Below are positions 30,200-33,430 of a stretch of DNA of 46,781 nt, in pieces (the stretch's first letter is position 1; every line of letters starts with the position of its first letter). The stretch is from Sphaerobacter sp. (GTDB lineage: Bacteria; Chloroflexota; Chloroflexia; Thermomicrobiales; Thermomicrobiaceae), in NCBI RefSeq assembly GCF_019683595.1, contig NZ_JADGHZ010000007.1, positions 1 to 46,781 of the forward strand. Reading direction: 5' to 3'. The translations under genes were made by a program, and so were the position numbers. The notes beneath the pieces are model-generated. The model had not been told where the DNA came from, made no database searches, and worked only from the letters and a program-made list of their open reading frames with translations.

Positions 30200-30400
30200 C
30201 CACGTCCTCCTTCACCGTTCGCGGTATCTCCGCTTCCAGCCCATTATGCATCTTCGATTTGGTGGCACGCAGGTCGCGATGGTTGTCGCTCGATGTGCTA
30301 AGATGCGCGACATCTCCGAGTGGACGAACAGCGACAACCGGAGGGAGGGGGATTGCGGGTTCTGAGCTCGTTCTTACTTGTCGTGTGAGGAGAAACATTG

Positions 30401-32056
30401 ATGCTCAAGCGACACAGCCTTGCTGTGCTGCTGGCCCTGGCGATGGCGCTGGCGACCGTGGCCACGGCGGCTGCTGCACCCTCAGACAGTACCCTGGCGG
30501 GCCAGCAGACGGAAGCGGACTGCATCTACTTCGAGGCAACGCAGCACAGTGTCTGCTTCGGGTTCAAGGCGTACTGGGAGAAGTTCGGCGGCCTGGCCAT
30601 CTTCGGCTACCCCATCACCGGGGAGTTTGTCGAGAATGGCGTGACCGTCCAGTACTTCGAGCGCGCTCGCTTTGAGTGGCACCCGGGCGTCTGGCCGGAG
30701 CGCTACGACGTCTTGCAGGGGCTGCTGGGCACCCAGCTCGCGGCGGACCGCCTCGGCACCGGGCCGTTCGCGCCGGCCGCGCCCGTCCAGGGCTGCACCT
30801 TCTTCGGAGCGACCGGCCACAACCTCTGCGCCGGCTTCCAGTCGTACTGGGAGAAGTTCGGCGGCCTGGCTATCTTCGGGTACCCGATCAGCGAGGAGTT
30901 CGTCGAGGACGGCGTGACCGTCCAGTACTTCGAGCGGGCGCGGTTCGAGTGGCATCCAGGCGTCTGGCCGGAGCGCTACGACGTCCTGCTCGGCCTGCTC
31001 GGTGTGCGGGCCATCAGCGGCGAGCAGCCGGGGCCGCAGTTCGTCCCCATCGCTGCCGAGCTCAACAACCCGCGCGGGATGACCATCGGTCCTGACGGCG
31101 CGCTCTATGTGGCGGAGGCGGGCCTGGGCGGCGACGGCCCGTGCCTGCCGAACCCCGAGGGCGACGGTGAGGTCTGCTACGGCCCGACCGGCTCGATCGC
31201 CCGGATCGCCGACGGCCAGGTGGAGCGCATCGCGACCGGGTTGCCGTCGCTGGCCGCTCCCGGCGGTGCCAGCGCGACCGGCGTCCAGGACGTGATCGTG
31301 ACCGAGGACGGCATCTACGCCGTCATCGGCCTGGGCGCGGACCCGGCGGCCCGCGAGCAGTTGGGTGACGTCGGGGCCGACTTCGGCACGCTCGTCCGGA
31401 TCAACGACGATGGGACCTACACGGTCCTGGTCGACATCGCCGCCTATGAGACCGCGGAGAACCCCGAACCGGCCGCGGTCGATAGCAACCCGTACTCGCT
31501 CGTCGCGGTTGACGACCACTTCATCGTCGCCGATGCCGGTGGGAACGACCTGCTCCACATCGACGGCAACGGCACGATCACCACGCTGGCCGTCTTCGGT
31601 CCGCGGATGGTCGATGCGCCGCCGTTCCTCGGCCTGCCGCCGGGCACGCAGATCCCGATGGAGGCGGTCCCGACCGGCCTCACCGTCGGCCCGGACGGTG
31701 CCTTCTACGTGGGCGAGCTGACGGGCTTCCCGTTCCAGGTGGGCGCCGCCCGTGTCTGGCGGGTCGTGCCGGGTGAGGATCCGGAGGTCTTCGCCGAGGG
31801 CTTCACCAACATCGTTGACACCGCCTTCGGGCCGGACGGCCGCCTGTACGTGCTGGAGATCGCCGCGGACAGCCTCCTGTCGGAGACCTCGCCCGGCGCG
31901 CTCTACCGCGTAGAGGCCGACGGCACCAAGACGCTGCTGGCGCGTGACGGCCTGGTCATGTCGACCGGCCTGGCGATCGACGACGAAGGCACGACCTACA
32001 TCGCCAACTTCGGCGTGGTCCCGGGCATGTCGCAGGTGGTCGGGCTTTTCGAGTAG
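30401..32056 (+). CDS. Secreted ScyD/ScyE-like beta-propeller protein with two N-terminal ~74-aa repeats
   Basis: Signal peptide LAVLLALAMALATVATAAAA; C-terminal LNNPRGMTIGPDGALYVAEAGLGG...VVPGEDPEVFAEGFTNIVDTAFGPDGRLYVLE. Confidence 0.83.
   Translation: MLKRHSLAVLLALAMALATVATAAAAPSDSTLAGQQTEADCIYFEATQHSVCFGFKAYWEKFGGLAIFGYPITGEFVENGVTVQYFERARFEWHPGVWPERYDVLQGLLGTQLAADRLGTGPFAPAAPVQGCTFFGATGHNLCAGFQSYWEKFGGLAIFGYPISEEFVEDGVTVQYFERARFEWHPGVWPERYDVLLGLLGVRAISGEQPGPQFVPIAAELNNPRGMTIGPDGALYVAEAGLGGDGPCLPNPEGDGEVCYGPTGSIARIADGQVERIATGLPSLAAPGGASATGVQDVIVTEDGIYAVIGLGADPAAREQLGDVGADFGTLVRINDDGTYTVLVDIAAYETAENPEPAAVDSNPYSLVAVDDHFIVADAGGNDLLHIDGNGTITTLAVFGPRMVDAPPFLGLPPGTQIPMEAVPTGLTVGPDGAFYVGELTGFPFQVGAARVWRVVPGEDPEVFAEGFTNIVDTAFGPDGRLYVLEIAADSLLSETSPGALYRVEADGTKTLLARDGLVMSTGLAIDDEGTTYIANFGVVPGMSQVVGLFE
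30521..31015 (+). repeat. Intragenic tandem duplication (offset 273 nt)
   Basis: TACTGGGAGAAGTTCGGCGGCCTGGC.ATCTTCGG.TACCC at ~30572 and ~30845; protein YWEKFGGLAIFGYPI..EFVE.GVTVQYFERARFEWHPGVWPERYDVL.GLLG in both. Confidence 0.9.
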
Positions 32057-32205: not shown

Positions 32206-32234
32206 TAGACAGCGCGACCCGGCTCCCCTACAAT
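32206..32234 (+). promoter_or_regulatory. Candidate strong sigma70-type promoter upstream of the RNHCP leader
   Basis: TAGACA (32206-32211)-N17-TACAAT (32229-32234). Confidence 0.55.
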
Positions 32235-32240
32235 GCGGAG

Positions 32241-32675
32241 GTCGCCCGGCATCCCCTGCCGGGTGGCAGCGGACGCGTCGAGCTTGGAAAAGGAAGGACT
32301 GATGGCCAGAGTAGGAACCGCCGCCCGAGTCGCGGATCACGCGGCACCGGTCCGCTAGCCGGCGTACAGTCTGGCCTCTCCGCTCGACGCCGAGGGACTG
32401 ATCCCCGGGGCGCGCTCGCGCCTCCGTACCCAGTACCCCGGTTGATCAACCGAGTCGTCGCCCGACCGTTCGCCGCGGATCGGATCGTCGTGCCGTCCGC
32501 GGCTCTCCGCTGAGCATCCCATCGATCTCATGGAGTCCGGCCCCACGGGGCCGGGGGGGCCTGCGCGTGCAGTGCGCCGCGGGCCGGTCGAGCGACGAGG
32601 AGGCATCGATGACCGTCTCTGCGCACAACCTGACGAAGCCGTCCCATTGGCTGCTGACGATAGGAGCGTATCCCC
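32241..32675 (+). ncRNA. Putative long structured 5' leader RNA of the RNHCP gene
   Basis: Nested helices 32275-32283/32382-32390 (GCGTCGAGC/GCTCGACGC), 32304-32310/32370-32376 (GGCCAGA/TCTGGCC), 32319-32323/32360-32364, 32332-32338/32349-32355; further hairpins 32241-32267, 32472-32503, 32537-32554; stems over the start region 32620-32629/32686-32695 and 32640-32646/32677-32683. Confidence 0.4.
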
Positions 32676-32728
32676 TTGGGACGTCGTTGTGCGCACGACT
32701 TCGACGAACTGGACGACTACGGTGTTGA
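32609..32728 (+). CDS. Possible 39-aa upstream ORF/leader peptide overlapping the RNHCP start
   Basis: SD GAGGAGG-catcg-ATG; MTVSAHNLTKPSHWLLTIGAYPLGTSLCARLRRTGRLRC*; different frame from RNHCP. Confidence 0.35.
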   Translation: MTVSAHNLTKPSHWLLTIGAYPLGTSLCARLRRTGRLRC

Positions 32729-33173
32729 CTGGGAACCAATCCGGCGCCGCTCGCGGCCGCGCACCGGCCGTGACACCGCGGACGGCGCGGGTCGAGCGAC
32801 TCGGAGCGAGCGCCGCGCTGCGCGGCGGCCACAGACCGAGAGCTTCCGCTGCCGGCACTGCAAAGCGATGGTCGGCCCGACGCTGGGCGGCGGGCGCCAC
32901 CGGAACCACTGCCCGTTCTGCCTGCACTCCCGGCATGTCGACGAGGCGCGACCCGGCGACCGGGCGAGCCGCTGCCGGGCGCTCATGGCCCCAATCGGGG
33001 TCTTCGTGCGGCGGTCGGGAGAACAGGTGCTGGTGCACCGCTGCCTCGGCTGCGGTATCGAGCGATGGAACCGCGTCGCGGCGGACGACCACCCGCTGGT
33101 GTTGATGACCCTCCCGCTGCTGTCCCCACCCGGGGCGGCGGCTGGCGGGCGGGACGCGGCGGCGCCGGCGTGA
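32676..33173 (+). CDS. RNHCP domain-containing protein
   Basis: FRCRHCKAMVGPTLGGGRHRNHCPFCLHSRHVDEARPGDRASRCRALMAPIGVFVRRSGEQVLVHRCLGCGIERWNRVAADD; TTG start with SD aggag; in-frame TAG at 32661. Confidence 0.88.
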   Translation: MGRRCAHDFDELDDYGVDWEPIRRRSRPRTGRDTADGAGRATRSERRAARRPQTESFRCRHCKAMVGPTLGGGRHRNHCPFCLHSRHVDEARPGDRASRCRALMAPIGVFVRRSGEQVLVHRCLGCGIERWNRVAADDHPLVLMTLPLLSPPGAAAGGRDAAAPA

Positions 33174-33177
33174 GCGC

Positions 33178-33209
33178 AACCGGGCCGGGGAGTGATCCCC
33201 GGCCCGGTT
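33178..33209 (+). terminator. Strong terminator hairpin after the RNHCP gene
   Basis: AACCGGGCCGGGGA-gtga-TCCCCGGCCCGGTT, 14-bp perfect stem with GNRA-type tetraloop. Confidence 0.8.
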
Positions 33210-33400
33210 CCCGTTTGGTGCGCGCGATGCGCGCGTGCGACTGTCCGGGGCGGAGGCGCGGAGGTCACTTCTCGTGTTGGTGGGAGCCGGCCGGCGCGGG
33301 TCGGCGAGCAGCGGAGCGAAAGATGACACACGGGGAGCGGGCTGCTGGCGGGTATACGGGGTTAATTCCTCAAACCCCATTGGAGAGCTTCGGAACAACA

Positions 33401-33430
33401 AAACAGCCGGCGCGAAAGCGCCGGCTGTTT
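33401..33430 (-). terminator. Rho-independent terminator, minus orientation
   Basis: AAACAGCCGGCGC-gaaa-GCGCCGGCTGTTT, 13-bp perfect stem; on the minus strand followed by TGTTGTT. Confidence 0.8.

Follow-up and report, generated by a model that had tools for sequence, protein, structure and literature searches.

The RNHCP gene of Sphaerobacter sp. is, on balance, probably controlled by a leader peptide, an arrangement that would place a translation-sensing switch on a probable ribosome-associated zinc protein. The gene lies in a window of 46,781 nucleotides, by which we mean the whole stretch of DNA that was analyzed. Our best reading is that control by a leader ORF is of a known kind and that the gene family under this control is uncharacterized. 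Computation showed the underlying pattern, an upstream ORF (uORF) combined with a weak start codon, across Chloroflexota, and it showed an anti-Shine-Dalgarno (anti-SD) switch in f30, a family of large-genome Chloroflexota (genomes of 6-14 Mb). The small ORFs, which a preliminary description of the sequence had only mentioned, are the more general part of the leader.

The RNHCP locus and its leader

The RNHCP gene occupies positions 32676-33173 of the + strand, on which all leader and gene features given below are located; it begins with TTG and encodes 165 aa. Its identity was confirmed by a match to PF12647 (113.6 bits against a cut-off of 24), with the domain covering residues 55-144 of the ORF (E 4e-33). 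A leader of approximately 435 nt separates the start of the gene from a promoter at 32206-32234, which consists of a -35 element TAGACA, a spacer of 17 nt and a -10 element TACAAT. The near-consensus promoter that had been reported was therefore present in the sequence. It is the only sigma-70-like site on the + strand between 31500 and 34000, and its -10 element and spacing are kept in Sphaerobacter sp. Bu17.

Conservation was assessed against two further Sphaerobacter genomes. Compared with Bu17 (G002), the leader was 77% identical over 481 nt from promoter to gene, and identity ranged from 77 to 80% from the promoter through the end of the RNHCP gene. It dropped to approximately 40% in the stretch of about 130 nt 5' of the promoter and also in the DNA 3' of the gene. 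Positions 32236-32510 were approximately 74-88% conserved, with no coding pattern. The third genome, G001, contained neither RNHCP nor the leader, and its DNA was 90% identical to the window from about 33,390 onward. Among the genomes compared, the leader was thus seen in two Sphaerobacter species only, that of the window and Bu17. The conserved block, its flanks at approximately 40% identity, and the joint absence of leader and gene from G001 indicate that the leader belongs to the RNHCP transcript and is not a random gap. On the same grounds, the earlier proposal of a cis-regulatory leader was right in kind.

A hairpin of 14 bp with a GTGA loop follows the gene at 33178-33209, a region past the RNHCP gene into which the Bu17 alignment does not extend. 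This hairpin had been described as a GNRA-capped terminator; the hairpin and its loop were present, while the T-rich tail is weak and the site was not among the predicted terminators, so that we retain it as a candidate terminator. Between RNHCP and a converging LysM gene, a strong two-way terminator hairpin (AAACAGCCGGCGC-GAAA-GCGCCGGCTGTTT) is located at 33401-33430. A dispersed repeat just 3' of RNHCP, at 33283-33383, had 28 more partial matches in its own genome, often as two adjoining halves, and about a dozen matches in another Sphaerobacter genome; it had no Rfam match. On the other side of the locus, positions 30398-32056 encode a protein of secreted type that combines an NHL/SGL domain with repeats following the pattern YWEKFGGLAIFGYPI, and the repeat part of this protein has some tens of matching places in other Sphaerobacter genomes.

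Secondary structure of the leader

The preliminary description had drawn four nested helices in the leader, P1-P4. The quoted helix arms, the GGACTGAT repeats and the palindromic stretches were all present in the sequence; the nested set itself did not hold up. Partition functions of the whole leader gave the core of P1 (stem 32275-83/32382-90, enclosing a domain at 32275-32390) a pair probability of approximately 0.98 in both species. P2 and P4, which would lie inside this domain, were not predicted, and their pair probability as drawn was approximately 0 in the window and in Bu17. The fate of every proposed pair was counted in the Bu17 alignment, a comparison of two sequences only. In P1, seven of nine pairs were unchanged, one had turned into a wobble and the last was lost; P2 had lost one pair and P4 two of seven. 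The covariation expected of P1-P4 did not appear, with zero compensatory changes between the window and Bu17. The palindrome at 32439-52 was destroyed in Bu17 (2/7 pairs kept), and the hairpin at 32537-54 had lost two pairs there. When compared with shuffled sequences, the whole leader folded better in the window (z -3.7) and no better in Bu17 (z -0.8). When 61 genomes of the order were searched with a covariance model for the domain closed by P1, matches came only from the genome of the window and from Bu17. These results do not support P1-P4 as the frame of a new structured RNA.

The 5' hairpin of the transcript (32241-32267) was significant in both species (z -4.3 for the window, -3.7 for Bu17), with 8 of its 11 pairs unchanged between the two and one broken. 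A long-range helix, 32455-68/32585-98, which does not appear in the preliminary description, had a probability of approximately 0.98 in both species and closes a domain (32455-32598) just 5' of the SD of the uORF; the fold of this domain gave a z of -4.4 in the window and -2.5 in Bu17. The sole compensatory change in the helix is C32463-G32590, which is U-A in Bu17. The long-range helix is better supported than P1-P4, although with two sequences a lone compensatory change carries little weight.

The leader had been put forward as an undescribed element, and no known family matched it: Rfam gave no match in the window above the gathering threshold, with chance-level matches alone near RNHCP. 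Identification as 6S RNA (RF00013) was rejected, as the leader gave no match and the genome's own 6S RNA is located elsewhere, at G000:C262. The suggestion of a stand-alone ncRNA was likewise rejected for want of evidence, the leader being present once per genome and exclusively in front of RNHCP.

The overlapping uORF and the RNHCP start

The leader ends in a uORF of 39 codons at 32609-32728 (MTVSAHNLTKPSHWLLTIGAYPLGTSLCARLRRTGRLRC), which begins with ATG and overlaps the RNHCP start. Its SD, GAGGAGG at 32597-32603, forms a duplex of -11.8 kcal/mol with the anti-SD (-12.3 kcal/mol in Bu17), and its end is located 53 nt downstream of the first base of the RNHCP start codon. The Bu17 uORF is identical in start, length and stop, so that a short SD-bearing ORF upstream of the gene, as in an attenuator, was found in both species. 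Substitutions in the uORF showed no third-position bias in a codon-position test. Translation of the uORF is therefore not proven, and we infer that it takes place.

The RNHCP start itself is a weak TTG behind an AGGAG (32662-32666) that is kept in Bu17. It is contained in a hairpin at 32620-32695 that also involves uORF codons 4-7 and 11-13 and is predicted in both species. The outer stem (32620-29/32686-95) had a probability of 0.7-1.0 in both species, and the inner stem (32640-46/32677-83) of 0.4-0.6 in the window and 0.75-0.95 in Bu17. Against shuffles, the hairpin gave a z of -3.1 in the window and -1.6 in Bu17. Neither the overlap of the uORF nor this hairpin had been noticed in the preliminary description.

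The effect of a stalled ribosome was modelled by blocking 31 nt at successive uORF codons, with 40 shuffles per test. This stall-release test was negative in Sphaerobacter (z 0.3 in the window and -0.2 in Bu17), occlusion of the RNHCP start was no greater than in shuffles, and no direct anti-SD was found there. The release step is thus not supported by computation in Sphaerobacter itself. As the stall-release test failed there, the window locus was not filed as a proven attenuator, and the negative test, together with a start no more occluded than in shuffles, makes simple coupling a close rival of stall sensing in the window.

An earlier ORF in the leader, sORF1 (32302-32358, MARVGTAARVADHAAPVR, SD AAGGAAGG), is a weak candidate leader peptide. 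Its start and SD are kept in Bu17, its stop is shifted, and the substitutions showed no coding pattern. Stalling on sORF1 was rejected as the trigger, since it left the RNHCP start unaffected in the folds of either species and had an inconsistent effect on the uORF start. A 41-codon ORF at 32233-32358 was rejected as a coding unit because a 1-nt insertion in Bu17 breaks its frame. A second, earlier SD-bearing ORF, similar to sORF1 of the window, was also observed 250-400 nt upstream of RNHCP at three other loci (L100, L102 and L103).

Overlapping uORFs across RNHCP loci

RNHCP loci were drawn from the order, the class and the phylum, and from plasmid and phage records. Starts and SDs were assigned by an automatic rule, and expected values were obtained from dinucleotide-shuffled upstream DNA. 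An SD-bearing uORF with an ATG start overlapped the RNHCP start in 37 of 82 loci, compared to 8.0 expected from shuffles (z 11.2); about half of the RNHCP loci had no overlapping uORF. Within Chloroflexota, overlapping uORFs were present at 37/74 RNHCP loci versus 12/58 control genes of the same loci (p 6e-4), and non-ATG starts at 53/74 versus 25/58, counts that overstate independence because the loci are partly related and that include control starts left uncurated. None of the 8 scorable RNHCP genes from plasmid or phage records had an overlapping uORF, and seven of these begin with ATG. Chloroflexota RNHCP genes tend toward TTG or GTG starts behind an overlapping SD-ATG uORF.

A computed anti-SD switch in family f30

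In f30, the uORF codons CGT CTT GTC CTC (R-L-V-L) act as an anti-SD whose pairing partner is the SD of RNHCP, GAGGACAA; the anti-SD of the leader (for example at L077 and L084) is TTGTCCTC. Across five aligned loci, this helix was paired in 92.5% of cells, compared to at most 65% when slid. It contained two double changes in the five sequences, a number reached by 38 of 500 shuffles. When uORF codons from approximately 4 to 14 were blocked in f30 and at a few other loci, the energy needed to open the SD and start codon of RNHCP fell by 4-10 kcal/mol. Release exceeded that of all 40 shuffles at L070, L076, L077, L078, L081, L083, L084 and L100, and the combined z was 9.9 over 39 loci; many RNHCP loci showed no stall-release signal. 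By computation, f30 therefore displayed both a masked SD and its release by a stalled ribosome, two marks of an attenuator.

Six loci (L070-L074 and L061) that represent further families of the class, and probably Chloroflexales, have a possible short ORF in the region from about -490 to -50 upstream of RNHCP, with a [KR]-[VI]-S motif in 5/6 loci (for example MGKKVSVLVHILA and MSSKVSVRAYISLWINPRVEA). The same loci contain two hairpins with common GCCACGGG/CCCGTGGC arms, and at several of them the second hairpin is a terminator with a T tail. Pairing between arms 2 and 3 would also be possible, which is the layout of a transcription attenuator.

The RNHCP protein and its gene neighbors

To our knowledge, RNHCP is a conserved Cys-rich domain of no known function, and we found no earlier report of RNHCP in this sense in the open-access literature searched. 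The protein of the window carries the RNHCP motif. Cysteines 10, 13, 30, 33, 51, 74 and 77 of the domain were invariant in 39 homologues. Comparison with solved structures, by a fold search with an RNHCP model and by a PDB profile search, returned nothing significant.

The rsgA gene was located directly 5' of RNHCP in three Chloroflexota loci (L113, L114 and L115) and directly 3' of it on a Vibrio plasmid (L117). A Streptomyces plasmid (L116) carries two RNHCP genes followed by an FBP_C gene; FBP_C is the zinc-finger family to which EF-G-binding proteins of the FusB type belong. These ribosome-linked neighbors, together with the type of leader, suggest a stress protein associated with the ribosome, and RNHCP is probably a ribosome-associated zinc protein. 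RNHCP genes were also observed in scaffolds from the human gut (L119-L124) whose records bear the name 'Bacteriophage sp.'. Their matched neighbors belong mostly to metabolic families, and the records therefore look bacterial, not viral.

Discussion

The mechanism that we propose begins at the promoter at 32206, from which transcription would yield a 5' UTR of approximately 435 nt; at its end, a uORF preceded by a strong SD extends across the RNHCP start. The weak TTG of RNHCP would be locked into a hairpin together with codons of the uORF, and ribosomes moving through the uORF, or stalling on it, would alter this hairpin and allow RNHCP to be translated, by coupling or by attenuation. In f30, the anti-SD in the uORF would hide the SD of RNHCP, which would be exposed once a ribosome stalls on the anti-SD codons. 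Sphaerobacter may use a similar logic. The expected signal would be impaired translation, such as that caused by ribosome-targeting drugs.

The overlap, the weak start and the hairpin of Sphaerobacter, together with a stall release not beyond chance, also suit plain translational coupling, in which the uORF does no more than bring ribosomes to a start codon that is weak and folded, and senses nothing. Coupling is a possibility to be taken seriously, if on the doubtful side, and it leaves unexplained the anti-SD in the early uORF codons of f30 and the large release effect there. Alternatively, control might lie with a structured RNA within 32241-32600 that acts in cis, either in the manner of a riboswitch or by binding a protein, with the uORF in a secondary role. 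The 5' hairpin, the P1 core and the long-range helix are shared by both species, one compensatory change accompanies them, and 32236-32510 is conserved at approximately 74-88% in a non-coding pattern. We nevertheless consider such an RNA unlikely to be the controlling element, as P2 and P4 were not predicted, P1-P4 showed no covariation, the Bu17 leader folded like its shuffles, and the leader is confined to two species.

GC-rich DNA is rich in open frames, and the uORF could be meaningless; 21% of control genes have such uORFs, and many loci lack a stall-release signal. An excess of z 11 over dinucleotide shuffles, the bias in start codons, and the occurrence of the strongest signal in f30, where leaders are less GC-rich, make chance a very improbable explanation. 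Programmed frameshifting, in which the uORF would encode the actual N-terminus of RNHCP and ribosomes would shift into the RNHCP frame, would fit the single relative frame shared by nearly all Thermomicrobiales uORFs. Other lineages use the other frame, however, and RNHCP has a normal SD with a TTG or GTG at normal spacing. As both relative frames occur among the loci, frameshifting was rejected and is scarcely credible.

Leader-peptide control, the reading we prefer, bears on the role of the protein. If RNHCP genes carry translation-sensing leader ORFs and are located beside rsgA and FBP_C genes, the protein probably acts on ribosomes under stress. If true, this reading would also bring Chloroflexota into the range of leader-peptide attenuation, with a uORF that overlaps a TTG or GTG start. 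A wider proposal, offered tentatively and as speculation, is that RNHCP proteins are a widespread, uncharacterized family of zinc proteins that protect or maintain ribosomes, that Chloroflexota turn them on by stall-sensing leader peptides overlapping the weak start of the gene, and that in Sphaerobacter this switch is supplemented by another leader ORF and a structured domain.

The closest known systems share parts of this design. The products of the erm genes are rRNA methyltransferases, and the leader ORFs of these genes stop short of the gene, whereas RNHCP uORFs overlap the RNHCP start. With the erm leader peptides ErmBL and ErmCL (ermBL, ermCL), the SD of the next gene is masked and is freed by a ribosome stall (PMC9178857, PMC11264731). 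The f30 layout is that of erm-type translational attenuation and of the toiL arrangement (PMC12121999, PMC9178857). At the toiL uORF of E. coli topAI-yjhQ, ribosomes stalled by drugs refold the RNA and allow translation, as established experimentally for five drug classes, and the likeness to RNHCP lies in a short uORF before a gene that has its ribosome-binding site buried in RNA structure (PMC12121999). The RNHCP switch differs in being computed only, and RNHCP uORFs differ in overlapping the regulated gene, which starts with TTG or GTG; we claim no sequence relation between toiL and RNHCP uORFs. The WblC/WhiB7 regulon of Streptomyces coelicolor differs in its control by a transcription factor, and RNHCP is not named in the available part of its description (PMC7157823). 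According to that part, the regulon comprises antibiotic-induced ribosome-maintenance genes that include RsgA and FusB paralogues, the same kinds of genes that are found beside RNHCP (PMC7157823).
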